DNA from: Betaproteobacteria bacterium HGW-Betaproteobacteria-16 | GTDB taxonomy: Bacteria; Pseudomonadota; Gammaproteobacteria; Burkholderiales; Burkholderiaceae_C | Reading direction: 5' to 3' | Assembly: GCA_002840835.1 (NCBI GenBank) | Contig: PHCQ01000013.1 | Location: 1 to 64,000, forward strand | Length of the DNA: 64,000 bases | Shown here: piece by piece, positions 37,284 through 50,062 of the stretch | Layout of the letters: each line of letters starts with the position of its first letter | Position numbering within the stretch: position 1 is the first letter of the stretch | Made by a program: the position numbers and the translations under genes | Notes under the pieces: generated by a model | The model's input: the letters and a program-made list of their open reading frames with translations, nothing else | Databases searched by the model: none | What the model was told of the DNA's origin: nothing

Positions 37284-39068
37284 TCAACCGACTTCGGGTG
37301 AGAGTTCGCGAATGGCCTGGTAGTGTGTGAGGAACACCTTGCCACTCAGGGCGTGCAGAAACTCGGTCGCCTTCAGCCGGTCCATCACGGGTCCTTTGAC
37401 TTCGGACAAATGCAGTTGGATGCCGGCGTCGCGCAAGCGCAAGTCGATGGCCTCCAGGCTTTCCAGGGCGCTGCCATCGATCTCGTTGATGGCCGAACAC
37501 TGCAGCACCACGTGCGCCAGCCCCGGGCGGCTGGCCACTGCGCTATTGATGCGGTCTTCCAGCGCACGCGAGTTGGCAAAGTACAGGCTTTCATCCACCC
37601 GCAGGCTCAAAACCCTGGGGCTGACCAGCACCGTGTGCCGCAGCACGTTGCGGAAGTGTTCGGTGCCCGCGACCAGGCCCACCTCTGCCATGTGGGGGCG
37701 GCTGGTGCGGTACAGGTACAGCGCCAGCGACACAGCCACACCCACCACCAGCCCGGTTTCCACGCCCACGCCCAGGGTGGCCACCAGCGTGGCCACCACG
37801 GCGATGAAATCGGACTTGGCGTAGTTCCATGTCTTGCGCAGGATGCTGAAATCCACCAGCGAAAGCACCGCCACCACAATCGTGGCAGCCAGCGTGGCCT
37901 GGGGCAGATAAAAGAGCGCCGGCGTGAGAAAGAGCGAGGCGAGCAGGATGCCGATGGCGGTGAACACGCCCGCGGCTGGCGTTTGTGCACCTGCGTCGAA
38001 ATTCACGATCGAACGGGCGAAACCACCGGTCACGGGAAAGCCTCCCGTGAAAGCGGCCGAGAGATTGCTCGTGCCGAGTGCCACCAGTTCCTGGTCAGGC
38101 TCGATGCGCTGGCGGCGCTTGGCCGCCAGTGTCTGCCCGACCGATACCGATTCCACGAACCCGACCACGCTGATGAGCAGCGCGGGCAGCATCAGCTGTT
38201 GCCAGAGACCCAGGTCCCAGACCGGCATCGTCAAGGGCGGCAGGCCCTGCGGCACGGTCCCGACGATTTTCACGCCCTGCGCCTGCCAGTCCAGGCGCCA
38301 GGTCAGCAAGGTGGTCACCGCGATCGCCAGCACCGGGCCGGCCTTGGTGACGATGTCGGCGGCACGCGGGTTCAGGCCCAGGCTCAACAGCAGCGGTTTG
38401 AGCCCACTGCGCGCCCAGAAGAGGAACGCCATGGTCAGCAAACCGATGGTCAGGGTCAGCCCATGCACCGCTCCCGCTTGAGCAAGCAGGGAATGGCCGA
38501 GTTCGAAGAAGTTGTGGCCTTCGGCCTGGACGCCCATCAAGGTCTTGAGCTGGCTGGCCGCGATCAGAATGCCCGAAGCCGAGATGAACCCCGAGATCAC
38601 CGGGTGGCTGAGGAAGTTGGCCAGAAACCCCAGCCGCAGAAGCCCCATGGCCAGTAGCAGAAGGCCCGACAGAAACGCCAGCGTGATGGCCACCGCCCAG
38701 TAGGCGTCTGACCCCGGCACGGCATGCTGGCCGATGGCCGCGGCCGTCATGAGCGACACCACGGCCACGGGGCCCACGGCCAGCACGCGGCTGGTGCCGA
38801 AGATGGCGTAAAAAATCAACGGGGCCACGCTGGCGTAAAGCCCCACCTCGGGCGGCAGGCCTGCGAGCATGGCGTAGGCCAGGCTCTGCGGGATAAGCAT
38901 GATGGTGACGATGAGCGCCGCCACGCCATCGCTGAGCAAAGTGGCGCGGTTGTAGCTTCGGCCCCAGTGCAGCACGGGCAGGGAAGGCAGCCAATGCTGC
39001 CAGGCCGGCCTGGGGTTCACGCGGGCTGCGTCAACTGGCTTGCGTGAGCCCGCCTCATCGTTGGCCAT
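37284..39068 (-). CDS. SulP-family anion transporter with STAS domain
   Basis: 594-residue inner-membrane anion transporter of the SulP (SLC26) family. About twelve or more membrane segments follow the family start YNRATLLSDGVAALIVTIML with IPQSLAYAMLAGLPPEVGLY; the ligand-binding repeat GFPVTGGFARSIVNFDAGAQ is present. The C-terminal STAS domain lies at about residues 450-570 (VLQCSAINEIDGSALESLEA). It is 3 bp downstream of the ArsR gene, so it is co-transcribed with a likely persulfide sensor. Transport of sulfate, sulfite or thiosulfate out of or into the cell is inferred. Confidence 0.94.
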   Translation of the reverse strand: MANDEAGSRKPVDAARVNPRPAWQHWLPSLPVLHWGRSYNRATLLSDGVAALIVTIMLIPQSLAYAMLAGLPPEVGLYASVAPLIFYAIFGTSRVLAVGPVAVVSLMTAAAIGQHAVPGSDAYWAVAITLAFLSGLLLLAMGLLRLGFLANFLSHPVISGFISASGILIAASQLKTLMGVQAEGHNFFELGHSLLAQAGAVHGLTLTIGLLTMAFLFWARSGLKPLLLSLGLNPRAADIVTKAGPVLAIAVTTLLTWRLDWQAQGVKIVGTVPQGLPPLTMPVWDLGLWQQLMLPALLISVVGFVESVSVGQTLAAKRRQRIEPDQELVALGTSNLSAAFTGGFPVTGGFARSIVNFDAGAQTPAAGVFTAIGILLASLFLTPALFYLPQATLAATIVVAVLSLVDFSILRKTWNYAKSDFIAVVATLVATLGVGVETGLVVGVAVSLALYLYRTSRPHMAEVGLVAGTEHFRNVLRHTVLVSPRVLSLRVDESLYFANSRALEDRINSAVASRPGLAHVVLQCSAINEIDGSALESLEAIDLRLRDAGIQLHLSEVKGPVMDRLKATEFLHALSGKVFLTHYQAIRELSPEVG

Positions 39069-39071
39069 GCT

Positions 39072-39404
39072 TCACGGCCTTTCACAAACACAGAACTGTT
39101 CGTACAGCACCTGCATCACGGCCAGCGCCTTGGGGCTGGTCAGGCCATAGATGATGTGTTTGCCCTCGCGGCGCGTGCTCACCAGGGCCTCGTCGCGCAA
39201 CACCGTGAGTTGCTGCGACAAGGTGGGCTGCACAATGCCCAGCAGCTCCTCCAACTCGCCCACGCGGCGTTCCCCCTGAGACAGCTGGCACAGAATCAGC
39301 AGCCGGTCGGGGTTGGACAGCACCTTCATCAGCCGGCAGGCTCGCCCGGCGGCTGACTGCATCTCTTCCAGATTCATCGAGACTTTTTCCATCGGCGTGT
39401 TCAT
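39072..39404 (-). CDS. bigR: ArsR-family repressor, BigR/SqrR-type sulfane-sulfur sensor
   Basis: About 110-residue winged-helix repressor. The region MKVLSNPDRLLILCQLSQGE, GELEELLGIVQPTLSQQLTV and STRREGKHIIYGLTSP is that of the BigR/SqrR/YgaV group. Counting from the ATG at 39404, Cys39 (ILCQL) and Cys105 (QFCVC) are 66 residues apart. That is the spacing of the redox pair in BigR (42/108) and SqrR (41/107), which form a tetrasulfide bridge with persulfides. The start is uncertain: an ATG at 39428 lies inside the promoter, and 39392 or 39377 are possible. It should repress both itself with sulP and the divergent blh gene. Confidence 0.88.
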   Translation of the reverse strand: MNTPMEKVSMNLEEMQSAAGRACRLMKVLSNPDRLLILCQLSQGERRVGELEELLGIVQPTLSQQLTVLRDEALVSTRREGKHIIYGLTSPKALAVMQVLYEQFCVCERP

Positions 39405-39421
39405 CGGGTTGATTGGTGGGT

Positions 39422-39459
39422 TTGACAAACAATATATTGAGATATATATTGTTTGTCAA
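39422..39459. promoter_or_regulatory. Mirror-image divergent promoters in a 16-6-16 perfect palindrome (BigR-type operator)
   Basis: Arms TTGACAAACAATATAT (39422-39437) and ATATATTGTTTGTCAA (39444-39459) are exact reverse complements around TGAGAT. Each arm begins with a consensus -35 TTGACA. On the plus strand TTGACA (39422-39427) is followed after 17 bp by TATATT (39445-39450). On the minus strand the same holds with -10 at 39436-39431. The two promoters overlap and run in opposite directions, blh to the right and arsR-sulP to the left. A dimeric repressor bound here would shut both. Confidence 0.9.
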
Positions 39460-39493
39460 TATATTGTTATTGAATGTGTGAACGGAGGATTTC

Positions 39494-40378
39494 ATGAACG
39501 CAACGCCCAGCAAGACCCCACAACCCCAGGTGCATGGCATGTTCGATCCCGCCACCTGGACCGTGACCTACGTGGTGCACGGTGGCCCGGGCACGGACTG
39601 CGCCATCATCGATTCGGTGCTCGACTACGACCCCAAGTCAGGGCGAACACAGCACGCCTCGGCCGACAAGGTGATCGACTATGTGAAGGCCAACGGCCTG
39701 CGGGTGCAGTGGATTCTGGAAACCCACGCCCATGCCGATCACCTCACCGCCGCGCCCTACCTGCGCGACCAGCTGGGCGGCAAGATTGGCATAGGGGGCC
39801 ACATCACCCAGGTACAAAAGGTGTTCAAGGGCCTCTTCAATCTGGAGCCTGGGTTCAAGCCCGATGGCTCGCAGTTTGACCACCTCTTCAAAGAAGGTGA
39901 GACCGTTCCGCTGGGCGCGCTGCAGGGTGAGGTGATGTGTGTGCCCGGCCACACGCCTGCGTGCGTGGCTTACCGCTTTGGCGATGCGGTTTTTGTGGGC
40001 GACACGCTGTTCATGCCCGATGTGGGCACCGCGCGATGCGACTTTCCTGGGGGCGATGCCCGCACGCTTTACGCCTCCACCCGCAAGCTGCTGAGCCTGC
40101 CGCCTGAAACCCGGCTGTTCATGTGCCACGACTATCCGCCGGAAGGCCGCCCGGTGGCGTTTGAAACCACAGTGGCCGAACAGCGGGCGAAGAATATCCA
40201 CGTGCACGACGGCGTGAGCCTGGACGACTTCGTGGCCATGCGCACCCGGCGCGATGCCACACTGGACATGCCAACGCTGATCCTGCCCGCGGTGCAGGTC
40301 AACATCCGTGCCGGCGAACTGCCGCCCAAGGAAGACAACGGCGTGGCCTACCTGAAGATTCCCCTGAACGCACTTTGA
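39494..40378 (+). CDS. blh: Blh/ETHE1-like persulfide dioxygenase (metallo-beta-lactamase fold)
   Basis: 294-residue beta-lactamase-fold dioxygenase that oxidises glutathione persulfide to sulfite. The metal/active-site motif WILETHAHADHLTAAPYLRD (HxHxDH) is complete, followed by GEVMCVPGHTPACVAYRFGD and VFVGDTLFMPDVGTARCDFP, and the late His in LFMCHDYPPEGR. These are the marks of Blh, the dioxygenase of bigR operons. The ATG at 39494 follows GGAGG at ideal spacing. It is divergent from arsR-sulP across a shared operator. Confidence 0.94.
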   Translation: MNATPSKTPQPQVHGMFDPATWTVTYVVHGGPGTDCAIIDSVLDYDPKSGRTQHASADKVIDYVKANGLRVQWILETHAHADHLTAAPYLRDQLGGKIGIGGHITQVQKVFKGLFNLEPGFKPDGSQFDHLFKEGETVPLGALQGEVMCVPGHTPACVAYRFGDAVFVGDTLFMPDVGTARCDFPGGDARTLYASTRKLLSLPPETRLFMCHDYPPEGRPVAFETTVAEQRAKNIHVHDGVSLDDFVAMRTRRDATLDMPTLILPAVQVNIRAGELPPKEDNGVAYLKIPLNAL

Positions 40379-40409
40379 TCCACCACCCACATTCACCCAG
40401 GGCAGCACC

Positions 40410-40859
40410 ATGACCACCGTTTCCGTTTCGCTCAAGCAGCAGGCCGACTACCGCTTCGAGATTCATTTTGGCGACAACATCCCGGCCCTGATCGCCGACG
40501 AACCCGCTCCGTTGGGCAAGGGCGAGGGGCCTTCGCCCGCCCAGTTGCTGTGTGCCTCGGTAGGCAACTGCCTGAGCGATTCGCTGCTGTTTGCCTTGCG
40601 CAAGTTCAAGCAGGCGCCCGAGCCCTTGCATGCCGAAGTGCAGGCCGAGGTGGGGCGCAACCCGGAAGGCCGGCTGCGGATTCTTGGCCTCCACGCCACC
40701 ATCCACCTGGGCGTGGCTGCGAGCGCGCTGGAACATCTGGAGCGGGCACTGGCGCAGTTCGAAGAATTCTGCACGGTCACCCAGAGCGTCCGCCAGGCCA
40801 TCCCGGTGAGGGTCACCGTGGTCGACGCAGAAGGTGTCACTCTGCATGACCAGAGCTGA
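40410..40859 (+). CDS. OsmC-family protein
   Basis: 149-residue OsmC/Ohr-superfamily protein. The region GEGPSPAQLLCASVGNCLSD holds two cysteines at about 47 and 53 in the first family helix; FEEFCTVTQSVRQAIPVRVT carries the C-terminal Cys. OsmC-like proteins reduce organic hydroperoxides and, in some cases, handle thiols or persulfides. It starts 31 bp after blh on the same strand and is probably co-transcribed. OsmC is a frequent partner of sulfur-oxidation genes, but its reaction here is unproven. Confidence 0.9.
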   Translation: MTTVSVSLKQQADYRFEIHFGDNIPALIADEPAPLGKGEGPSPAQLLCASVGNCLSDSLLFALRKFKQAPEPLHAEVQAEVGRNPEGRLRILGLHATIHLGVAASALEHLERALAQFEEFCTVTQSVRQAIPVRVTVVDAEGVTLHDQS

Positions 40860-40886
40860 CATCAGGATGTCTGAGGGCAACGGCTC

Positions 40887-41795
40887 ATGATCGTGGGCGC
40901 ATTGACCACCGTCGGTGGTCTGTGGGCGCTGCAGAAGTGTGCCCATCTGGGCATCGTCAGGGGTTTGCGTGCACCACGCGTCAGCCATGCGCTTGGATCG
41001 GACGCCTCAGGCCTGCCGCGTGATCAGGTCACGGAGGTTGATATCCCGACCACTGGCGGCAAGCGCTTGTCGGCCTGGCTGGTGATGCCGTCGCAAAGCA
41101 CCGGGAAACCCCTGCCAGCCGTGCTGGTGATGCACGGCTGGGGTTCGAACGCCGCGATGATGTGGCCGGTTGTTCCGCCGCTGCATGCGGCCGGTTTTGC
41201 CGTGCTGCTCATGGACGCGCGGTGTCACGGGCACAGCGATGACGAGACTTTCACCTCGATGCCGCGCTTCGCGGAGGACATGGCTTCGGGGCTTGCCTGG
41301 TTGAGAACGCAGCCCGCCATTGCGGGTGACCAGTTGGCGCTGCTGGGCCACTCGGTTGGCGCGGCCGCCGCTTTGCTGCACGCTTCGCAGCATGACGACG
41401 TTCGCGCCGTGGTCAGCCTGTCTGCGTTCGCACACCCCGAAGAGGTGATGCGGCGGTTCATGGCTGAAAAACGAGTCCCGTATCCCTTGCTGGGCTGGTA
41501 CGTCCTTCGCCATGTGCAGAAAGTGATTGGCACCTCCTTTGACGACATCGCGCCCCTGCGCACGCTGGCGGCCGTGCGCTGCCCCACCTTGCTGGTGCAC
41601 GGCCTGTCTGATCGCACGGTCCCGGTGGACGATGCCCACCGCCTGCAGGCGGTCTCCCTCAAGGCGCGGTTGATGCTGGTGGAGGGGGATCACGATCTGC
41701 GCGAGGCCCTGGCACCCCATGCCCCTGCGCTGGTGGCGTTTCTGCGCGACGCCATCGAAACGCCAACTGACAAGCCCCACAGCGGAACCGACTGA
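40887..41795 (+). CDS. Alpha/beta hydrolase
   Basis: 302-residue alpha/beta hydrolase. A first hydrophobic stretch (MIVGALTTVGGLWALQK) suggests a membrane anchor or uncleaved signal. The nucleophile elbow is LALLGHSVGAAAALLHA (GHSVG, Ser at about 158), the oxyanion loop VLVMHGWGSNAAMMW, the Asp in LLVHGLSDRTVPVDDAH and the His in LVEGDHDLREAL. Family members of this type include putative peptidases and acyl hydrolases; the substrate is unknown. It lies 27 bp after the OsmC gene and 3 bp before the next gene. Confidence 0.9.
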   Translation: MIVGALTTVGGLWALQKCAHLGIVRGLRAPRVSHALGSDASGLPRDQVTEVDIPTTGGKRLSAWLVMPSQSTGKPLPAVLVMHGWGSNAAMMWPVVPPLHAAGFAVLLMDARCHGHSDDETFTSMPRFAEDMASGLAWLRTQPAIAGDQLALLGHSVGAAAALLHASQHDDVRAVVSLSAFAHPEEVMRRFMAEKRVPYPLLGWYVLRHVQKVIGTSFDDIAPLRTLAAVRCPTLLVHGLSDRTVPVDDAHRLQAVSLKARLMLVEGDHDLREALAPHAPALVAFLRDAIETPTDKPHSGTD

Positions 41796-41798
41796 TCC

Positions 41799-42626
41799 AT
41801 GTTGTCCCTCTCACTCGGTCCGATCGCACTGCCGGTGGCACCCCTGGTGCTGTTGTGCGCCGTATGGGGCACCTCCTTTCTCGCTTCTCGCCTCGCGCGC
41901 AAGAGCGAAGACGCGGCTCAGAGCGAAGTGGCTGGCAACACCGTGTTCCACGCCGCGCTGGTCGGCTTGCTGGCAGCGCGCCTGGCCTACCTGGTCATCC
42001 ACGCCGATGCCTACCTCGCGTCGCCGCTGTCGGCGCTGGATGTGCGTGACGGCGGCTGGTACGCACCTGCGGGAATGGTCGCTGGTTTGGCGTGGTTGGC
42101 ATGGCGCAGCCTGCGCTGGCCAAGGCTGAAAAAAGCCTGGCTCGTGAGCAGTCTGGTCGGTGTGACCGTCTGGTGGCTCGCATCCACCGCGATCGGTCTG
42201 GCTGGCTCGCCGTCCATGCCGGCTGTGGAGCTGGCCGCACTGGGAGGAGGCGAATCCACCACCCTTTCACAGGCTGCCCGGGGGCGGCCGGTGGTCGTCA
42301 ACCTGTGGGCGACCTGGTGCGCACCCTGCCGCGTCGAGATGCCCATGCTGGCCGCCGCGCAACAGCGCGAGGCGGCGGTGGGCTTCCTCTTCGTCAACCA
42401 GGGCGAGTCGCCAGCCGCCGTGCAGGCCTACCTGCGCAAGGAAGGCCTGCCCCTGCGCGAGGTTCTGCTCGACAAGGGATCGAAGCTAGGTGAAGCCATT
42501 GGCTCACGCGGCATTCCCGTCACACTCTTCTACGATGCACAGGGCAGACAGGTGGATGCGCACTTCGGCCTTCTCAACGCCGCCGCGCTGGAGAGCCGCC
42601 TGCGCCAGCTTCGCCCAACCCGATGA
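41799..42626 (+). CDS. TlpA-like thioredoxin with N-terminal Lgt-like membrane domain
   Basis: 275-residue membrane-anchored thiol-disulfide protein. Residues about 1-125 contain four hydrophobic segments; one has VFHAALVGLLAARLAYLVIH and YLASPLSALDVRDGGWYAPA, which resemble part of prolipoprotein diacylglyceryl transferase. The C-terminal thioredoxin domain (about 145-275) has the redox motif NLWATWCAPCRVEMPMLAAA and the cis-proline loop SRGIPVTLFYDAQGR. The catalytic domain should face the periplasm. It starts 3 bp after the hydrolase gene. It may reduce or trap oxidised or persulfidated periplasmic thiols; this is inferred from position. Confidence 0.88.
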   Translation: MLSLSLGPIALPVAPLVLLCAVWGTSFLASRLARKSEDAAQSEVAGNTVFHAALVGLLAARLAYLVIHADAYLASPLSALDVRDGGWYAPAGMVAGLAWLAWRSLRWPRLKKAWLVSSLVGVTVWWLASTAIGLAGSPSMPAVELAALGGGESTTLSQAARGRPVVVNLWATWCAPCRVEMPMLAAAQQREAAVGFLFVNQGESPAAVQAYLRKEGLPLREVLLDKGSKLGEAIGSRGIPVTLFYDAQGRQVDAHFGLLNAAALESRLRQLRPTR

Positions 42627-42639
42627 ATACCGTCACCCC

Positions 42640-43281
42640 ATGAACACAGACACAAAGAAGACCTCACCGTTCAGCGCACCTGCCCAGACCTGGAACCAGC
42701 GCTTTGCCGCGTCCGGTTTCCTGTTCGGTTCAGCGCCCAATGCCTGGCTGCGTGAGCACGCATCCGTCTGGTCACCAGGCGACCGGGTGCTGTGTGTGGC
42801 AGATGGTGAAGGCCGAAACAGCGTGTGGCTTGCGGAACAGGGGCTCACGGTGGATGCCTTCGATATCGCCGAGATCGGCGTGGCTAAAGCACGGGACCTG
42901 GCCGCGCAGCGGGGCGTGACCGTCAACTTCACTGTGGCCGATTGCGATGACTACGCCTGGCCCGAAGCGGCCTGCGACGGTGTGGCGGCCATCTTCGTGC
43001 AGTTTGCAGACCCGGCCCTGCGCGAGCGGCTGTTCGCGCGCATGGTGCGCGCGCTGAAACCCGGCGGTCATCTGGTGTTGCAGGGCTACACGCCCCAGCA
43101 GCTGGAATACAAGACCGGCGGGCCGCCACTGGCGTCGCACCTCTACACCGAGGCCCTGTTGCGCGAAGCGTTCGCCGAACTCGACATCGTGAGCTTGCGC
43201 GAATACGAAGCGGACCTGGCGGAAGGCAGCGGTCACCATGGCCGCTCGGCGCTGATCGGGCTGGTGGCGCGGCGACGCTGA
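42640..43281 (+). CDS. Class I SAM-dependent methyltransferase (TehB/thiol-methyltransferase-like)
   Basis: 213-residue soluble methyltransferase. The start TWNQRFAASGFLFGSAPNAW with WSPGDRVLCVADGEGRNSVW is that of TehB/thiopurine-type enzymes, where motif I VLCVADGEGRN binds SAM. Motif II VNFTVADCDDYAW and the C-terminal ALLREAFAELDIVSLREYEA follow. Enzymes of this type methylate tellurite, selenium compounds or thiols. It follows the TlpA-like gene by 13 bp. A role in thiol methylation within the sulfur island is a guess from context. Confidence 0.87.
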   Translation: MNTDTKKTSPFSAPAQTWNQRFAASGFLFGSAPNAWLREHASVWSPGDRVLCVADGEGRNSVWLAEQGLTVDAFDIAEIGVAKARDLAAQRGVTVNFTVADCDDYAWPEAACDGVAAIFVQFADPALRERLFARMVRALKPGGHLVLQGYTPQQLEYKTGGPPLASHLYTEALLREAFAELDIVSLREYEADLAEGSGHHGRSALIGLVARRR

Positions 43282-43313
43282 TACCCCATGAATGACAGAA
43301 CGACAAAAACGAC

Positions 43314-43781
43314 ATGACCGGCAACGACAGCTTTGCGCGCCACCTGGGCACCGTCCTGGTTGCGTTGCAGTTCATCTGGATCGTGCTTCTGGCGTGGTTG
43401 GCTCTGCCGGCATTTTTTGCGGCACGTGCACCGATCGGCGCCTGGATCTGCGCCATGCTGGGCGTGCTGCTGGGCCTGTGGGCCTTGTCCAGCAACCGGC
43501 TGGGCAATTTCAACATCCGGCCGGCGCCTCGCGCAGGGGGGACGCTGGTTCAGCAAGGCCCCTACCGCTGGATCCGCCACCCGATGTACACCTCGGTGAT
43601 CGCAGTGGGTGTGGCCTGTGCCTGGGCCAGCGGTCACTGGCTGGCCTGGCTGGCATTGTGCGCGCTCGTCGTTGTGCTGGTGGTCAAGGCCGTCTTCGAG
43701 GAGCGCTGGATGGTCCAGGCGCATCCCGCCTACGCCGTCTACCGCCAGCGCACGCGGCGGTTCCTGCCTTGGCTGTTCTGA
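43314..43781 (+). CDS. Isoprenylcysteine carboxyl methyltransferase-family membrane methyltransferase
   Basis: 155-residue membrane protein of the ICMT/PEMT fold. Four hydrophobic segments surround the SAM-binding signature LVQQGPYRWIRHPMYTSVIA, with the late HPAYAVYRQRTRRFLPWLF tail typical of the family. Bacterial members act on varied thiols or lipids, and one relative, MddA, methylates methanethiol. It is 32 bp after the soluble methyltransferase. Which substrate it uses is unknown. Confidence 0.88.
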   Translation: MTGNDSFARHLGTVLVALQFIWIVLLAWLALPAFFAARAPIGAWICAMLGVLLGLWALSSNRLGNFNIRPAPRAGGTLVQQGPYRWIRHPMYTSVIAVGVACAWASGHWLAWLALCALVVVLVVKAVFEERWMVQAHPAYAVYRQRTRRFLPWLF

Positions 43782-43836
43782 CGCCAACCGACCATCCAGA
43801 CACTGCTCCTCAACGCGAAACCGATCCGGACCCGAC

Positions 43837-44550
43837 ATGATCCCCATCCAGACCCAATCCGCCTGGCGCGGCACCTCTGATTGCCGGTCTTGCGCCGTGC
43901 GTGAACTGGCGCTGTTTTCCAACCTCAATGAAGAAGACTTCGTCCACATTCATGCGCCGATCGACGACCTGGCCTACCGGGTGAATCAGGTCATCTTCAG
44001 CGAAGGGGAAGAGGCCACCGGCATCTTCACGCTGCGTTCCGGCATGCTGAAACTGTCGCGCGTCACGGGAGACGGTCGTCGGCGCATCCTCCGCCTGCTG
44101 CGGCCGGGCGATGTGGTCGGTCTGGAAGCCCTGGCCACCGGGCGCTACGACAGCGAAGCTGCCGCTCTCACCAGCGCAACGCTGTGCCGCATTCCCACCG
44201 AGGTGGTGCACCGGCTGAGCCAGCAGTCGTCGCGCATGCACGCGGGCCTGCTCAACAAATGGCAGAAGACGCTGCGCGAGGCCGACGATTGGCTGGCCTC
44301 CATCAACTTCGGCACGGCGCGTCAGCGGGTGTGCCAGTTCATCTTGAAAATGCGCCACGCCACGGACCCGGGCATCGCCACGCTGTTCTCGCGCGAAGAC
44401 ATGGGGGCCATGATGGACCTGAAGCTCGAAACGGTGAGCCGCGAGGTATCCGCCCTGGTGAAGGCTGGAGCCATTCAGCCGATCGACAAACAGGGGCGCC
44501 TCTACCGCATCGTGGACGAAGCCATGCTGCAACCATCAGCGGGCAACTGA
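43837..44550 (+). CDS. Crp/Fnr-family transcriptional regulator (FNR-like)
   Basis: 237-residue regulator with an N-terminal cyclic-nucleotide-type beta-roll (about residues 38-140) and a C-terminal HTH. The recognition segment MMDLKLETVSREVSALVKAG has the E-x2-S-R pattern of FNR, so TTGAT-type boxes are expected as targets. Cysteines at about 16 and 19 (DCRSCA) and 117 (LCRIP) match three of the four iron-sulfur ligands of E. coli FNR; the one following the first pair is absent. A [4Fe-4S] oxygen sensor or a thiol/NO sensor are both possible. It starts 56 bp after the ICMT gene and precedes the peroxiredoxin gene, which has an FNR-like box upstream. Confidence 0.9.
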   Translation: MIPIQTQSAWRGTSDCRSCAVRELALFSNLNEEDFVHIHAPIDDLAYRVNQVIFSEGEEATGIFTLRSGMLKLSRVTGDGRRRILRLLRPGDVVGLEALATGRYDSEAAALTSATLCRIPTEVVHRLSQQSSRMHAGLLNKWQKTLREADDWLASINFGTARQRVCQFILKMRHATDPGIATLFSREDMGAMMDLKLETVSREVSALVKAGAIQPIDKQGRLYRIVDEAMLQPSAGN

Positions 44551-44602
44551 CACGGTCATGCGTATCCGGCTATCAGCGGCATAGTGCAAGTCAACCGGCG
44601 CA

Positions 44603-44616
44603 TTGATCCATGTCAT
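44603..44616. promoter_or_regulatory. FNR-like box upstream of the peroxiredoxin gene
   Basis: TTGAT-CCAT-GTCAT; the left half-site is perfect and the right half (consensus ATCAA) matches poorly. It lies 90 bp before the peroxiredoxin start and right after the FNR-type gene, whose product has the matching recognition helix. Confidence 0.45.
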
Positions 44617-44705
44617 GCGGGCTACCTGGTGGGGGTCTGACACTGAAGTCATCGAACAGGGATGTCCTGCTCGGTTCAATCATTCACCTTCTCAAGGAGT
44701 TCCCC

Positions 44706-45344
44706 ATGGAAACCGTATCCAGCTTCCCCCGCCTCAACGAACCCGCGCCGGCCTTCAAGGCCACCACCACCCATGGCGAACGCAGCCTGGACGACTACAA
44801 AGGCAAGTGGCTGATCCTGTTCTCGCACCCCGCCGATTTCACACCGGTGTGCACCACCGAGTTCATCGCCTTTGCCAAGGCCGCCGACAAGTTCAAGAGC
44901 ATGAACTGCGAACTGCTGGGCCTGTCCATCGACAGCATCTACTCGCACCTGGCCTGGATGCAGAGCATCAAGAACAACTTCGGCATCGAGATTCCCTTTC
45001 CCATCATCGATGACATCAAGATGGACGTGGCGCGCGCCTACGGCATGATCCACCCCGGCGCGGCCGACACCCAGGCCGTGCGCGCCACCTTCTTCATCGA
45101 TCCCGAAGGCAAGCTGCGCGCCATGGTGTACTACCCCATGAGCAACGGCCGTTCGATCGACGAATTCGTGCGCCTGCTCACCGCCATGCAGACCAGCGAT
45201 GCCAACAAGATCGCCACGCCTGAAGGCTGGACGCCAGGCTGTGATGTCATCGTCCCGCCGCCCAAGACGCCTGCGGCGATCGAGACCCGAAAAGGCGAGG
45301 GCTACGCCATGAAGGACTGGTACTTCGCCACGCGCCCGCTCTGA
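44706..45344 (+). CDS. Peroxiredoxin (Prx6/AhpC type)
   Basis: 212-residue peroxiredoxin. The peroxidatic Cys at about 49 lies in SHPADFTPVCTTEF, with GLSIDSIYSHLAWM and the C-terminal extension TPEGWTPGCDVIVPPPKTPA. The Cys in the WTPGC segment could resolve, so either one- or two-Cys chemistry is possible. Long C-termini of this kind are typical of the Prx6 subgroup. The ATG at 44706 follows CAAGGAG at good spacing. It reduces hydroperoxides and perhaps polysulfides. It faces the FisR-like gene tail to tail. Confidence 0.94.
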   Translation: METVSSFPRLNEPAPAFKATTTHGERSLDDYKGKWLILFSHPADFTPVCTTEFIAFAKAADKFKSMNCELLGLSIDSIYSHLAWMQSIKNNFGIEIPFPIIDDIKMDVARAYGMIHPGAADTQAVRATFFIDPEGKLRAMVYYPMSNGRSIDEFVRLLTAMQTSDANKIATPEGWTPGCDVIVPPPKTPAAIETRKGEGYAMKDWYFATRPL

Positions 45345-45377
45345 GCGGTTGCCCCCGATGCCCATGGGGCAGAAGCC

Positions 45378-46730
45378 TCAGGCGGCGTCGGGGTCCTCGC
45401 CCATTTCCCGCAGCTTGCGGTAGAGCGACCGCTCACTGATCCCGAGCTTGTGTGCCAGTTCCGCGCGGCTGCCGCGGTGGGCCTTGAGTTCGGCCTGCAG
45501 GGCGGCACGCGCCATGTTGCGTAAGGAGGAGCCCGGGCTCGGTGCGGTGTGCGTTGGCTCCGCTGTCAGGGTACTTCGGCTTTCCACCGAAGGGTATGCC
45601 ACTGCGGTTTCCAGCGCCCGCTCCATGTGTACTGGGTCGATGCTGTTGCCGTCGGCCATCAGGGCCGCCCGCTCCAGCACATTGCGCAGTTCGCGCACAT
45701 TGCCTGGAAACGGGTAACGCTTCAACAGATCCAGCGTGCCGGCAGACAGGCTCAGTCGCCGCTGTGGCGCCACGCGGTCCAGCAGCGCCACGGCCAGCAG
45801 CGGGATGTCTTCTGCCCGCTCCCGCAGCGCCGGCAAAACGATGGGGAAGGTGCTGAGGCGGTAGTACAGGTCTTCACGGAAGCGGCCATCAGCCACCATG
45901 GCTTGCAGGTTGCGGTGTGTGGCCGAGACCACGCGCACGTCGGTGCGCCGCAGCTCGGTGCTGCCCACGCGGCGGTAGGTGCCGCTCTCCAGCAGGCGCA
46001 GCAGCTTGACCTGCATGGCCAGCGGAATGTCGCCCACCTCGTCCAGAAACAGCGTGCCGCCACTGGCGGCTTCCACCAGCCCGGGCTTGCTGGTGTTGGC
46101 CCCCGTGAAGGCGCCGCGCTCATGCCCAAACAGTTCGCTCTCGAACAGGGTCTCCGGCAGACTCGCGCAGTCGACGACCACGAGCGGGTTGGCCGCGCGG
46201 GGGCTGGCATCGTGTACCGCCTGCGCCACCAGTTCCTTGCCAGTGCCGGACTCCCCGAGCAGCAGCACGCTGGCCTGCGACGGCCCCACCCGGGCCACCA
46301 GTTCCAGCATGCGCTGGAAGGCCGCCGATCGTCCCACCAGGCCCTGCCCGGCGGGCCGGCCTTGCGCCACGCGCAGGGGTTCCATCTTTTCGATGAAATA
46401 GGCCTGCTCGCCGCTGGCATCGCGCAGCGGCACCAGCTCGATGTTCACGTACGACTCGCCCTGTGGTGTGTGGTGCAGGTGCAGGACCCGCTCGCGCTGG
46501 CCCGACTCGCGGGCGCGCCCCAGCGGGCAGCTTTCCCCGGCCTGGTCACATGGCACGCTGAAGCGGTGAGACACCTCGTAGCAGGTGCGCCCGATCACCG
46601 AGGCACGCGCGCTGTACTGGCTGCGGTACGCGGCGTTGGCCGCAATGATCCGGTACTGGCGGTCCAGCAGAATGTGCGGCTCGGGCAGGGCTTCCAGGTA
46701 CGACACCAGTTCGGGCAACGCATGGGCCAT
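45378..46730 (-). CDS. fisR: Sigma-54-dependent activator, FisR-type sulfane-sulfur sensor
   Basis: 450-residue sigma-54 enhancer-binding protein. An N-terminal PAS-like sensor (about 1-125) has Cys at 50, 61 and 68 (RTCYEV, SVPCDQ, ESCPLG). Spacing 11 and 7 is identical to Cys53/64/71 of FisR, which sense sulfane sulfur and then allow activation of persulfide-oxidation genes. The AAA+ domain has Walker A LLGESGTGKELVAQ, the sigma-54 contact loop HERGAFTGA and FREDLYYRLSTFPIVLP; the C-terminus ends in a Fis-type HTH AELAHKLGISERSLYRKLRE. The ATG at 46730 puts the cysteines in family register; an in-frame ATG at 46793 is an alternative. It is divergent from the MBL gene at 47136. Confidence 0.9.
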   Translation of the reverse strand: MAHALPELVSYLEALPEPHILLDRQYRIIAANAAYRSQYSARASVIGRTCYEVSHRFSVPCDQAGESCPLGRARESGQRERVLHLHHTPQGESYVNIELVPLRDASGEQAYFIEKMEPLRVAQGRPAGQGLVGRSAAFQRMLELVARVGPSQASVLLLGESGTGKELVAQAVHDASPRAANPLVVVDCASLPETLFESELFGHERGAFTGANTSKPGLVEAASGGTLFLDEVGDIPLAMQVKLLRLLESGTYRRVGSTELRRTDVRVVSATHRNLQAMVADGRFREDLYYRLSTFPIVLPALRERAEDIPLLAVALLDRVAPQRRLSLSAGTLDLLKRYPFPGNVRELRNVLERAALMADGNSIDPVHMERALETAVAYPSVESRSTLTAEPTHTAPSPGSSLRNMARAALQAELKAHRGSRAELAHKLGISERSLYRKLREMGEDPDAA

Positions 46731-46869
46731 CGATTCGGTCTTTCGGCAAGGTTTCACGGACGCCTGGGCCGCAGCTCCGAAGCGATCAAGCATGCTTTCA
46801 GCATCAGTCTACGCTGATATTCAAGCCTTCTGCCGGCGGCGATCTACCGGGTGCCGCCTGCCAGATCCT

Positions 46870-46886
46870 TCTGCCAGTTTGGCAGA
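46870..46886. promoter_or_regulatory. Candidate upstream activating site for the FisR-like regulator
   Basis: Perfect 7-3-7 inverted repeat TCTGCCA-GTT-TGGCAGA. A partial half, TTCTGCCGG, lies about 40 bp to the left. It is 95 bp before the sigma-54 promoter-like site, the usual distance of an enhancer. Confidence 0.6.
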
Positions 46887-46980
46887 CAGGGCGTGGTGCT
46901 GGCGCAAAAGGCACACAACCACTGCGGACGTGATGTGACCAAACGATTGATTTGATTAGGGTTCTTTCTTTTCAGGTCAT

Positions 46981-46996
46981 TGGCACGGGATTTGAA
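46981..46996 (+). promoter_or_regulatory. Sigma-54-type promoter (-24/-12) for the MBL gene
   Basis: TGGCACG-GGAT-TTGAA, compared with consensus TGGCACG-N4-TTGCA. The -24 part is perfect and the spacing is correct; the -12 dinucleotide GC reads GA. The promoter points at the MBL gene, whose start at 47136 would then lie about 130 bp downstream of the transcript start. Confidence 0.55.
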
Positions 46997-47135
46997 AGCC
47001 ATGCGCCACGACACCTTGCGAGCAAGCATTGAACGGCCTTCCGTTGATCAGTGGCAGCACCGTCGAGGAGGTGTGCCTTCAGCACGCACCCATTCATCAA
47101 CCACATACGTTCAGCCCCACAACCCAGGACGCCGC

Positions 47136-47750
47136 GTGTACTTCCGCATCCTTCATGACGAAACCCACGGCTGCATGAGCTATCTGCTGGCCGACATGGA
47201 AGCCGGCGAGGCCGTGCTGGTGGACCCGCGCAGCACCGACGCGCCGGTGCTGGCCGCCATGCTGGCCGAGCACCATTTGCGTCTGCGCTGGCTGCTGCGC
47301 ACCCACGAACACGACGAACAGCTCTCCGGTGAAGCAGCGGCGCTGGACAGTTTGGGTGCGCCACGCATCCAGCATCGCATGCCCAGCCAGCCGATGTGCC
47401 CGGGTGGAGAAGCCGACACACTGGTCTTTGGCAATGAACTGCTGAAGGTGATGTCCACACCAGGCCATACGTCCGGTTGTCTGAGTTTCCTTTGGCGCGA
47501 CAGGTTGTTCTGCGGCGGCCTGCTCTCTGTGGACACCTGCCCCTTTCAGCCGCGCCCGGCCTTGCCAGAGGCGTTGTGGGACAGCGTGTCGCGCCAGGTC
47601 TTTACCTTGCCGGGCGAGACGCTGCTGTTTTATGGCCATGCCGCCCGGGGCAGGGTGGTGTCGAACGTGTTCGAGCAGCGGCGCTGGCATCCATGGTTCG
47701 GCGGTCAGACGCGCGACGAATTCCTCGCACGGGTGCAGACACTCAATTAG
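47136..47750 (+). CDS. Metallo-beta-lactamase-fold protein, degenerate relative of persulfide dioxygenase
   Basis: About 204 residues from a GTG at 47136 (7 bases after AGGA), beginning VYFRILHDETHGCMSYLLAD like ETHE1-type enzymes. The metal motif is changed: LLRTHEHDEQLSGEA in place of THxHADH, so Asp and the last His are Glu and Gln. The later GDTLF loop reads FCGGLLSVDTCPF, without the bridging Asp. His in STPGHTSGCLSFLW and YGHAARG remain. The iron site is therefore doubtful; it may act as a binding protein, a rhodanese-like helper or a changed enzyme. Earlier in-frame starts (47001, 46980) conflict with the sigma-54 promoter. It is the likely target of the divergent FisR-like activator. 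Confidence 0.75.
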   Translation: MYFRILHDETHGCMSYLLADMEAGEAVLVDPRSTDAPVLAAMLAEHHLRLRWLLRTHEHDEQLSGEAAALDSLGAPRIQHRMPSQPMCPGGEADTLVFGNELLKVMSTPGHTSGCLSFLWRDRLFCGGLLSVDTCPFQPRPALPEALWDSVSRQVFTLPGETLLFYGHAARGRVVSNVFEQRRWHPWFGGQTRDEFLARVQTLN

Positions 47751-47793
47751 GACGACGCCCCAGGCACCGCCAGGTCTCGGATGAGCCTTGCGT

Positions 47794-49521
47794 TCAAGCC
47801 GCCTCAGGTCGAACGCTGGCCACGCGGGTCCAGACGCTGGCCGCGTCCTGGGCGGTGGTGCCGCGCCAGGCGATCACCTGATCGGGTCTGACGATCAACA
47901 GGCCCCCGTCCAGCGGATCGCCAACCTGATCAGCAGCCAGCACGAGCAGTTTCACATCGAGCCCTGCCGCGCCGCCCGCGTCTGCCAGGGCTTGCGCTTC
48001 GGCCTGCAAGGGGTCGGGTGCCAGCACGGTCCATTCAAAGCCCAGCAGGTCGTACAGCGAGTGTTCGCCGCCCAGCCAGCAGTGAGGCAGGCGCCCGCCA
48101 GGGTTCGTGGTGGGGACGTATTCATTGGCTTGATCGGTCGGCACATGGTCCGGGTCGCTGAATACCAGTGGCGAGTTGTCATACCTTTCGCCAAAGGTGA
48201 CACCCGGAATGTTGAACTCTCTTCGCACATGCGCGTCCAGCACCGTGCTGGCATGGGCACGCTGCTGTTCGCCCTCGGCGCCTTCGGATTCCAGTGCAGG
48301 CGTGGCCTCGAACAGCCCCACTGAGTCGGCGAACTGACGCGCATAGGCGGTATTGCGCAGACCGATGGGGCGGCGCTCCTGTTCGTAGCTGTCGAGCAGG
48401 GCGGCGTGTGACCGACCCTTGATCACGGCCGCGAGCTTCCAGCCCAGATTGACGGCGTCACCCACAGCGGTGTTGTAGCCCAGGCCCCCAGTGGGCGTGA
48501 ACAGGTGGGCTGCGTCGCCCGCAAGAAACACCTTGCCTTGCTGGAAGCGTTCGGCCACCAGGGAATGGCCTGCGATCCAGATGCCAGTCGACAGAATGTC
48601 AATGTGCAGATCGGGCATGCCGCTGGCCTCGGCAAAGATCCGGCGCGCGTCCTCGTGGGTCCAGTCTTCGGGTGTCTCGTGCGGATGCACCGCAGCGTGG
48701 AAGGCGAACTCGCCACGCCCGTCCACCGAGGCCATGAACACCCGCCGCTCATGGTTGACCGACACATACATCCAGGCCATGTCATGCGGAAACTGCTGGT
48801 AGAACGCCGGTGCGCGCAGGTAGATGGCGAACATCTTTCCGCCCATGAACTGGCGCTGCAGACCGGTTGCACCCCCCATGCGAATGCCCAGTGCGCTGCG
48901 CACAGGACTGCGGGCGCCATCGGCTGCCACCAGGAAGCGGGCGCGCACGGTGACCGGCTTGACGCCTTCTGTGGCGGAGTTCACTTGCGCCGTCACACCG
49001 TCCGGCGTGTCTTCAAAGGACTGCAGCTGCCAGCTGAATTCGATCCGATGGCCTGTGCGGCGTTCGGCGTGTTCGCGCAGCACCGCTTCCACGTATTTCT
49101 GCGACACCCGGTGCGGCAGCTCGGCTGCACTCCAGGAGCCCTTCATCTGCTTGATCTGCTGCGTGGCCTGCGCGGCGGTGGGCAGGCGCAGACGGGCCAG
49201 CTCGTACCGGGCGAAGCGGGTGAAGTAGGCGATATCGGTGGGGTGGTCGCCTGGCAGGCCCAGCGAACGCACCTGTTGCGACACGCCGATGCGACGGAAA
49301 TGCTCCATGGTGCGGGCCTGGGTGGCATTGGCCTGCGGATTGAAGGCCGTGCCTGGTTTCGGGTCAACAACCAGGCAGGCTACATTCCTCAGGCCGAGTT
49401 CATTGGCCAGCATCAGCCCGCAGGGACCCGCCCCGGCGATCAGCACATCCACCTGCAGCTCGCTGCCCTGGCAGGTCTGCAGCTTGCTTGTGGCTTCACT
49501 TGTGGTGGTGTCGTCTGGCAT
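47794..49521 (-). CDS. FAD-dependent monooxygenase (PheA/TfdB family)
   Basis: 575-residue class A flavoprotein hydroxylase. FAD motif VLIAGAGPCGLMLANELG near residue 27, the middle motif RFLVAADGARSPVRSALG and the FAD/ribityl motif VFLAGDAAHLFTPTGGLGYN with VGDAVNLGWKLAAVIKG are intact. The length and C-terminal thioredoxin-like extension match phenol and dichlorophenol hydroxylases (PheA/TfdB, MhpA). It is divergent from a MarR-type gene, a common plan for aromatic-inducible systems. The aromatic substrate is not known, and no ring-cleavage genes are next to it. Confidence 0.93.
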   Translation of the reverse strand: MPDDTTTSEATSKLQTCQGSELQVDVLIAGAGPCGLMLANELGLRNVACLVVDPKPGTAFNPQANATQARTMEHFRRIGVSQQVRSLGLPGDHPTDIAYFTRFARYELARLRLPTAAQATQQIKQMKGSWSAAELPHRVSQKYVEAVLREHAERRTGHRIEFSWQLQSFEDTPDGVTAQVNSATEGVKPVTVRARFLVAADGARSPVRSALGIRMGGATGLQRQFMGGKMFAIYLRAPAFYQQFPHDMAWMYVSVNHERRVFMASVDGRGEFAFHAAVHPHETPEDWTHEDARRIFAEASGMPDLHIDILSTGIWIAGHSLVAERFQQGKVFLAGDAAHLFTPTGGLGYNTAVGDAVNLGWKLAAVIKGRSHAALLDSYEQERRPIGLRNTAYARQFADSVGLFEATPALESEGAEGEQQRAHASTVLDAHVRREFNIPGVTFGERYDNSPLVFSDPDHVPTDQANEYVPTTNPGGRLPHCWLGGEHSLYDLLGFEWTVLAPDPLQAEAQALADAGGAAGLDVKLLVLAADQVGDPLDGGLLIVRPDQVIAWRGTTAQDAASVWTRVASVRPEAA

Positions 49522-49539
49522 GTCTCTGTCTATTTATTT

Positions 49540-49548
49540 AGGTTACCT
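49540..49548. promoter_or_regulatory. Candidate MarR operator between monooxygenase and marR
   Basis: AGGT-T-ACCT within TATTTATTTAGGTTACCTTA, in the 46-bp divergent space. It must overlap both promoters because the space is so short. The palindrome is small, so support is moderate. Confidence 0.4.
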
Positions 49549-49567
49549 TAGTAAAATCATTCTACGC

Positions 49568-50062
49568 ATGATGCCGGCTTTGTCAAAATCCTTTCACACA
49601 CGTGACGCCTGGCGGCTGGGCAACGCGGGCCGTGTGCTGGGCGATGCGCTCACGCGTTTTGAGGCCCGGGTGCTTGAGCTGATGGCCGCTTCCGGTCATG
49701 GCCAGACGCGGCTCTCGCATGTGAACCTGACCCGCCACCTGGATCTGGAAGGCACACGCATCACAGAGCTGGCTCGCCGCGCCCGCATGACAAATGCCGC
49801 CATGACCGAATTGATCGATCAATGCGAAACCCTGGGTTTGGTGGTGCGCGAAGTGGACGCGAGCGACAAGCGCGCCCGGACGGTGCACTTCACCGAAGCG
49901 GGGCGTGTGTGGTTGCTTGCCTTTGGCAAAGCGGTGAAAAAGGCAGAGCGCGAACTGTTCGCCGAGATAGGCCCCGAGGCCGCAGCAGTGCTGCTGGAGG
50001 GCCTCGGGCGCTACGCCGGAACGGTGGAGTCGATCCGGGTGGGCGGCAAACCGGTGCCTTGA
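49568..50062 (+). CDS. MarR-family transcriptional regulator
   Basis: 164-residue winged-helix regulator. The HTH region is ITELARRARMTNAAMTELID with QCETLGLVVREVDASDKRAR as the wing, the standard MarR pattern. The ATG at 49568 or the adjacent one at 49571 is the start; longer frames upstream overlap the divergent monooxygenase gene. It should repress the monooxygenase, and an aromatic ligand probably relieves this. Confidence 0.9.
   Translation: MMPALSKSFHTRDAWRLGNAGRVLGDALTRFEARVLELMAASGHGQTRLSHVNLTRHLDLEGTRITELARRARMTNAAMTELIDQCETLGLVVREVDASDKRARTVHFTEAGRVWLLAFGKAVKKAERELFAEIGPEAAAVLLEGLGRYAGTVESIRVGGKPVP

Follow-up and report, generated by a model that had tools for sequence, protein, structure and literature searches.

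The activator FisR and the repressor BigR have been reported together in one genome, that of Acinetobacter baumannii, where FisR drives a sigma-54-dependent sulfide-oxidation operon from which it is divergently oriented, while BigR represses a PDO2 operon (PMC7315123). BigR-type control is also described for the bigR-blh systems of Xylella and Agrobacterium, in which a persulfide dioxygenase is controlled by an ArsR-type sensor whose two cysteines are spaced 66 residues from each other (PMC5823870). The window analyzed here is a stretch of 64,000 nucleotides (contig PHCQ01000013.1, positions 1 to 64,000) from Betaproteobacteria bacterium HGW-Betaproteobacteria-16, whose block at 37284-47750 carries sensors of both types. 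An earlier note on this DNA had interpreted the block as a single reactive-sulfur island. Our analysis indicates that it probably consists of two adjoining reactive-sulfur modules with separate switches, the FisR module being reduced here to FisR and a degenerate ETHE1-like protein (dMBL), a reading that changes the effects to be expected from gene deletions.

The source genome is a 5.79 Mb draft of 232 contigs (completeness 100, contamination 6.26), with the window as contig C213. The comparison set included 118 related genomes, 67 of them from the same genus (probably Hydrogenophaga), own genome included, which were searched with FisR, PDO2, the Lgt-TlpA protein, the FNR-like protein and dMBL as queries. 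A second, named-genome set comprised 80 pattern-selected dMBL loci, 47 of them full-length. Genes, motifs, synteny, co-occurrence, the site pattern and selection were all computed; the sensing chemistry, the use of the promoters, the enzyme activities, the role of dMBL and its horizontal origin are inferred. Gene calling on 40 fetched stretches of relatives used a codon-usage caller trained on the window genes, which missed the dMBL of locus L099; greedy calling of the longest open reading frames was dropped because of antisense artefacts in the GC-rich relatives. The names of FisR-module genes in relatives were assigned by sequence inspection and clustering, without family scans. The main elements are:

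39072-39428, minus strand: ArsR-family BigR/SqrR-like repressor with C47 and C113 (family scans, alignment)
39422-39459: predicted repressor operator, a perfect inverted repeat (16-bp arms, 6-bp loop) in the gap of the divergent gene pair arsR/PDO2 (repeat search)
39494-40378, plus strand: PDO2-type persulfide dioxygenase, the dioxygenase half of Blh without rhodanese (NCBIfam scan, structure-chain matches)
45378-46793, minus strand: FisR-like sigma-54 activator, PAS_4 - AAA+ - HTH_8, with C71/C82/C89 (family scan with PF00158, alignment)
46870-46886: predicted FisR upstream activating site TCTGCCA-GTT-TGGCAGA (repeat and motif searches)
46981-46996, plus strand: predicted sigma-54 promoter TGGCACGGGATTTGAA, with the -12 GC replaced by GA (motif searches)
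47136-47750, plus strand: dMBL (204 aa), ETHE1/PDO1 fold with a remodelled metal site, in which H57, H59, H111 and H168 are kept, the D154 equivalent is G128, and C126 is present (alignments, profile and fold searches)
43783-47815: segment absent from the sister genome G062 (alignment, 4,033 bp versus 43 unaligned bp)

Gene order in the relatives showed that two sets of genes were each conserved separately, but the whole block was not. Module A of the genus comprised SulP, usually a YeeE/YedE pair, ArsR, PDO2, OsmC, an alpha/beta hydrolase, the Lgt-TlpA protein, a methyltransferase and an ICMT-like protein, in some genomes with FNR and a peroxiredoxin (Prx) in addition, while module B comprised FisR with cydAB, Rieske, octaheme-type cytochrome, dMBL, SQR-like, globin and DsrE-like genes (SQR, sulfide:quinone oxidoreductase). 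The ArsR-type PDO2 (at least 75% identity) and FisR were present together in 2 of the 67 same-genus genomes (2/20/23/22, Fisher p 0.001, uncorrected for kinship), and among the fetched stretches they adjoined only in the window; in G010, module A was located on contig C15 and module B on contig C47. The sister genome G062 was colinear with the window to 43782 and from 47816, with FNR, Prx, FisR and dMBL missing between. Given this rarity and the gap at the G062 locus, one conserved island is unsupported: the outcome by which the earlier note would have its reading refuted, neighbors that do not stay together in relatives, applies to the whole block but not to its two halves. In the dMBL tree, the window protein fell into one group (100/96) with proteins from Rubrivivax (one), Acidovorax (two), Ottowia and G010, and not with nine other Hydrogenophaga rows, which favors a gain of FisR-dMBL in the window over its loss in G062; the pair was probably acquired horizontally. 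FNR-Prx may have been gained in the window or lost in G062.

The genes do share a toolkit, and on this point the proposal of one program was reasonable. Among 23 other FisR loci (22 genomes, unequal lengths), SulP was found in 13, the TehB-like methyltransferase in nine, Prx in eight and PDO2 in six, while raw counts at 50% identity or more in the 80 dMBL loci gave the hydrolase in 22, PDO2 in eight, SulP in six, Prx and Lgt-TlpA in four each, the TehB-like protein in three and the ICMT-like protein in two. A Rubrivivax locus (L176, C4_MAG_00063) combined PDO2, SulP, FisR, Rieske, dMBL, hydrolase, YeeE, YedE, methyltransferase (79%) and ICMT-like (55%) genes within 12.6 kb. Such recurrence of the same families in both module types, and their union in Rubrivivax, would be expected if the whole block were under joint control of the two sensors and the FNR-like protein. 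Against such joint control stand the separation of the modules in other Hydrogenophaga, the 2/67 co-occurrence, a sole operator-like palindrome at arsR-PDO2 and a sole strict FisR site before dMBL; in A. baumannii, moreover, FisR and BigR serve different operons, as primary and backup system (PMC7315123). We therefore regard joint control as unlikely: one chemistry is a fair description, a single regulated block is unsupported, and the single program is unproven.

The proposal of two separate sulfane-sulfur sensors is supported, in that both ArsR and FisR possess the right sensor cysteines. In ArsR, C47 and C113 are 66 residues apart, the same spacing as in the pairs Cys42/Cys108 of BigR and Cys41/Cys107 of SqrR, and both were kept in 10/10 aligned rows; the BigR/SqrR label fits this pair, but the score missed the NCBIfam BigR equivalog cut-off (104.3 versus 155 bits). 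The fuzzy operator pattern had its sole match in the window at 39425, in the arsR-PDO2 gap, and similar fuzzy AT-rich cores were present in eight of the ten module-A loci inspected. A BigR-type operator as shared switch of the entire block was rejected, given this single match. The Blh label was right for the dioxygenase half, which matched model positions 138-423, but the N-terminal sulfurtransferase domain is missing (393.8 bits versus a cut-off of 625); since the nearest solved chains (4efz, 4ysk, 9g8t) are single-domain and only those model positions were matched, the window dioxygenase belongs to the PDO2 type.

In the mechanism proposed for module A, the BigR/SqrR-like repressor would sit on the AT-rich palindrome and repress the units on either side, sulP-arsR in one direction and PDO2-osmC-hydrolase-tlpA-methyltransferases in the other, the latter closely spaced and perhaps transcribed further into FNR and Prx. 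Persulfide would link C47 to C113, upon which the repressor would leave the DNA and the derepressed module could oxidize, methylate, reduce and export sulfur. PDO2 likely converts glutathione persulfide (GSSH) to sulfite, SulP may transport sulfite, thiosulfate or sulfate, and OsmC, the TlpA-like protein and Prx are likely to reduce peroxides and disulfides. By analogy with MddA and MddH, which methylate H2S or methanethiol (PMC12904073), the two methyltransferases may act on the same compounds.

The block at 37284-47750 contains neither SQR nor rhodanese, as the earlier note had stated. Elsewhere in the genome there were 19 rhodanese-domain matches and, on contig C38, a flavoprotein resembling that of flavocytochrome c sulfide dehydrogenase (35% over 408 aa); this protein and the rhodaneses are candidates for the persulfide source. 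A genome search with one SQR-like query gave nothing above 26% identity, with 50 Pyr_redox_2 matches left unsorted, so that an SQR of another type is possible. On one small contig (G000:C210:5273-11081), two rhodanese domains and one MBL domain accompany a second homologue of Lgt-TlpA (40%), possibly as another sulfur locus.

The activator of module B had all class features of FisR, namely a sensor domain (PAS_4), the AAA+ sigma-54 domain (PF00158) and a Fis-type helix-turn-helix (HTH_8), and its three regulatory cysteines were conserved in 24/24 rows. Their spacing of 11 and 7 fits the FisR of Cupriavidus pinatubonensis, whose cysteines are reportedly C53, C64 and C71, a match in spacing. The gap between FisR and dMBL contains TCTGCCAGTTTGGCAGA, followed 109 bp on (start to start) by TGGCACGGGATTTGAA. 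The pattern searched for was a TGCCA-N3/4-TGGCA palindrome upstream of a sigma-54-like promoter. With at most one mismatch in each part, the pair was present in 61/63 FisR-divergent regions of the named-genome set (55/57 without the six loci from the genomes used for pattern discovery), as compared to 0/1260 dinucleotide and 0/3150 mononucleotide shuffles. Among the 23 FisR regions of the relatives, the palindrome was found in 15 and the promoter-like motif in 19. The strict pattern occurred on the dMBL strand in 34 of the 80 dMBL loci, on the opposite strand in none and in 0/400 shuffles; in the scan of 118 genomes it gave 25 places in 22 genomes, 19 of them beside FisR, with zero matches for the reversed-pattern control, and its sole match in the source genome lies before dMBL.

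The palindrome-to-promoter distance varied from 87 to 129 bp across FisR loci, with most values at 97-103 bp and 53/63 at 95-104 bp. Nine distinct spacings outside that range were near whole helical turns (p 0.0004 against uniform draws, the loci being related), and the mean resultant of 0.64-0.70 was nearly flat between periods 9.5 and 11.5; we take this phasing as supportive only. The link between dMBL and FisR also showed in gene content: dMBL was present in 20/25 FisR-bearing and 0/42 other same-genus genomes, less than 7 kb from FisR on one contig in 18 of these 20 and on separate contigs in the other two, and FisR was on the strand opposite to dMBL within the fetched stretch in 63/80 named-genome loci (40/47 full-length). 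FisR, activated via its three PAS-domain cysteines, would bind TGCCA-N3/4-TGGCA and switch on a sigma-54 promoter that lies some ten helical turns further downstream. In relatives this promoter would serve an operon in which dMBL is accompanied by genes for cytochrome bd oxidase, a Rieske protein and an SQR-like protein, and here dMBL alone. The operon of Sphaerotilus sulfidivorans contains genes of PDO-like, SQR-like and bd oxidase type.

Several observations weigh against the proposed modules and their FisR site. The relaxed pair also matched in four same-length control stretches 1 kb downstream, 6/25 strict places in the 118-genome scan were away from FisR, and 18/23 regions reached p ≤0.05 with author-set weights while 5/23 did not. 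In place of the -12 GC of sigma-54 promoters, the window has GA, and most relatives have GG or GA. Five of the 25 FisR-bearing same-genus genomes had no dMBL, and several of the compared genomes are only 55-90% complete. Finally, FNR-Prx follow module A in G010 and G036, yet both are absent in G062, so they may or may not belong to module A here. The sigma-54 consensus alone was discarded as evidence, with 49 window matches versus 53.7 expected, not above chance.

Additional FisR-type sites were noticed in two situations. In three Rhodoferax-type loci (L218, L225, L241) a strict site stands directly before dMBL, alongside or instead of the FisR-adjacent one, which suggests a dMBL with its own FisR promoter. 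G053:C7:51371-51504 (L164) carries a second strict site about 10 kb from FisR, with flavocytochrome c sulfide dehydrogenase and cytochrome c genes 3-5 kb off.

The kinship of dMBL with dioxygenases, already recognized in the earlier note, was confirmed, but its start is most likely the GTG at 47136 and not 46980, as judged from relatives. It matched no Pfam family at E 0.001, while an 18-member profile found PDO/ETHE1 structures with E down to 1.8e-50; the best solved-chain matches of profile and model were ETHE1/PDO1 (4chl, 4ysb, 8zbd), apart from 9rhq, and the structure model (18 rows) had pLDDT 70.7 and pTM 0.68, with low confidence in the C-terminal half. Cysteine dioxygenases have a three-histidine metal site. 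The iron ligands of ETHE1 are His79, His135 and Asp154, and its residue numbers were transferred to dMBL using the order of the motifs together with the ligands listed in PMC4383860. In the window protein both histidines are kept and the aspartate is replaced by glycine. The 19 dMBL from the protein search all had H57, H59, H111 and C126 (the Thr152 position), none kept the Asp-His of the HxHxDH motif, and the Asp154 position was Gly in 15, Asp in three and Cys in one. The pattern-selected loci agreed: H57 and H59 in 77/77, H111 in 76/77, H168 in 75/77, Gly 69, Asp 8 and Pro 1 at the Asp154 position (n=78), Gln in 78/80 at the Thr164 position, never Asp at the Asp165 position and never Tyr at the Tyr197 position. 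C126 was present in 75/77 aligned named loci, a partly circular figure as one search pattern contained FCG, 19/19 being the unbiased one. Six outgroup PDO1-like proteins had the full motif intact. Taken together, the changes imply that six distinct ETHE1-type functions were lost and the histidine core retained, and the scattered branches with Asp at the Asp154 position suggest that Asp is no longer needed.

A decaying ex-dioxygenase without function would explain the loss of the Asp83, His84, Asp154, Arg163, Asp165, Asp196 and Tyr197 equivalents in most dMBL in a genome that has intact PDO2 and MBL-rhodanese proteins. This is very unlikely, however: among 136 pairs, the 14 closest had dN/dS values of 0.14-0.36, pointing to purifying selection and hence function, the four histidines and C126 are almost invariant, and dMBL is kept beside FisR across Burkholderiales. 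A still-active dioxygenase for persulfide or a related thiol, tolerating the missing aspartate, is unlikely; the ETHE1 fold, the H79/H135 equivalents and Asp in 8/78 dMBL are in its favor, but Asp154 is one of the three iron ligands, and the sites of ETHE1 disease substitutions (Thr152, Arg163, Thr164, Asp165, Asp196) are nearly all changed (PMC4383860 for the ETHE1 sites). In outgroup G103, from another family, FisR faces cydAB, an intact PDO1, a globin and a weakly SQR-like gene, and this PDO1 at the position of the Hydrogenophaga dMBL marks its likely origin. We tentatively propose that dMBL is a Burkholderiales-wide FisR-controlled family which arose in place from the ETHE1-type dioxygenase of such an operon by losing the Asp ligand and gaining C126, with the three site-1 histidines (H57, H59, H111) and H168 kept. 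It might bind a metal through three histidines or three histidines plus cysteine, or its C126 might hold sulfane sulfur, and the protein would then accept persulfide or be a feedback partner of FisR, probably no longer a GSSH dioxygenase; persulfide handling or feedback, with or without metal, is its most likely role, at modest odds.

All twelve genes named in the earlier note exist at or near the positions it gave (listing of open reading frames, family scans), although several labels needed correction. The genes not listed above are:

37284-39068, minus strand: SulP-family anion transporter with STAS domain, module A (PF00916 352.7 bits; TIGR00815 over cut-off)
40410-40859, plus strand: OsmC-like protein (PF02566 49.6 bits, over cut-off)
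40887-41795, plus strand: alpha/beta hydrolase (family scan), with relatives near FisR-dMBL in other genera too
41799-42626, plus strand: fusion of a TlpA/ResA-like CxxC thioredoxin domain with a membrane anchor similar to part of Lgt (family scans)
42640-43281, plus strand: class I S-adenosylmethionine methyltransferase, TPMT/TehB-like (family scans)
43314-43781, plus strand: PEMT/ICMT-like membrane methyltransferase (family scan)
43834-44550, plus strand: CRP/FNR-family regulator with three of four FNR-type cysteines (family scans, alignment)
44706-45344, plus strand: peroxiredoxin, AhpC-TSA with 1-cysPrx_C (PRK13189 282.4 bits versus cut-off 211)

The TehB label passed in Pfam (23.2 versus cut-off 20.4) but failed in NCBIfam (27.8 versus 219.5), and with Methyltransf_25 (55.4) and TPMT (37.7) both scoring above TehB it is a loose name for a general class I methyltransferase. 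On the module B contig of G010 (L087, 6012-6447), an ICMT-like gene with 73% DNA identity to the window copy lies directly beside FisR.

E. coli FNR has four cluster cysteines, including a third N-terminal one. The window regulator has C15, C18 and C116, but that third N-terminal cysteine is missing and the NCBIfam Fnr score was 78.1 versus 228, so that the FNR-type label is to be used with caution. FNR-box-like sites with at most one mismatch were absent from the block, the three in the window all lying outside. The missing cysteine and absent sites weaken the oxygen input through FNR suggested before, which is unproven. A continuous series of module A, FNR and Prx was found in G010 and G036 (the G036 contig ends within Prx), and FNR alone after module A in G014.

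At 47794-50062 the block is flanked by genes for a FAD monooxygenase (PF01494) and, in divergent orientation, a MarR-family protein. The two also occur next to PDO2-OsmC in G024 (L117) and, in G062 (L107), next to module A. Since sensing of sulfane sulfur is reported for MarR proteins, a third sensor beside the block is conceivable.

Compared with A. baumannii, whose two systems lie apart and whose FisR has no regulatory cysteines (PMC7315123), the window has FisR with its cysteines, adjoining modules, no YeeE/YedE beside arsR and a FisR that faces dMBL instead of PDO1-SQR. Like the FisR of C. pinatubonensis, described as a sigma-54 activator with three conserved cysteines, the window FisR belongs to the cysteine-bearing type but differs in its target, dMBL. 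In comparison to bigR-blh (PMC5823870), the window PDO2 has no rhodanese half, OsmC, hydrolase, TlpA-like protein and methyltransferases are added, and SulP replaces YeeE/YedE. The analysis provides a concrete candidate for a FisR binding code, consisting of palindrome, sigma-54-like promoter and fixed helical spacing, and names dMBL as a constant, overlooked FisR partner; a FisR-linked degenerate ETHE1 protein was not found described in the open-licence papers searched, and the family and its site pattern may be new. In contrast to ETHE1/PDO1 (4chl, 4ysb, 8zbd), dMBL is devoid of the Asp ligand and the substrate-site residues and has C126; should its site indeed be a three-histidine one, it would represent a natural experiment in which one dioxygenase center was turned into another within a stress regulon. 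Overall, the locus combines parts of known kinds and the published two-sensor principle in a rare adjoining arrangement, with a FisR-linked, remodelled ETHE1 family on top.

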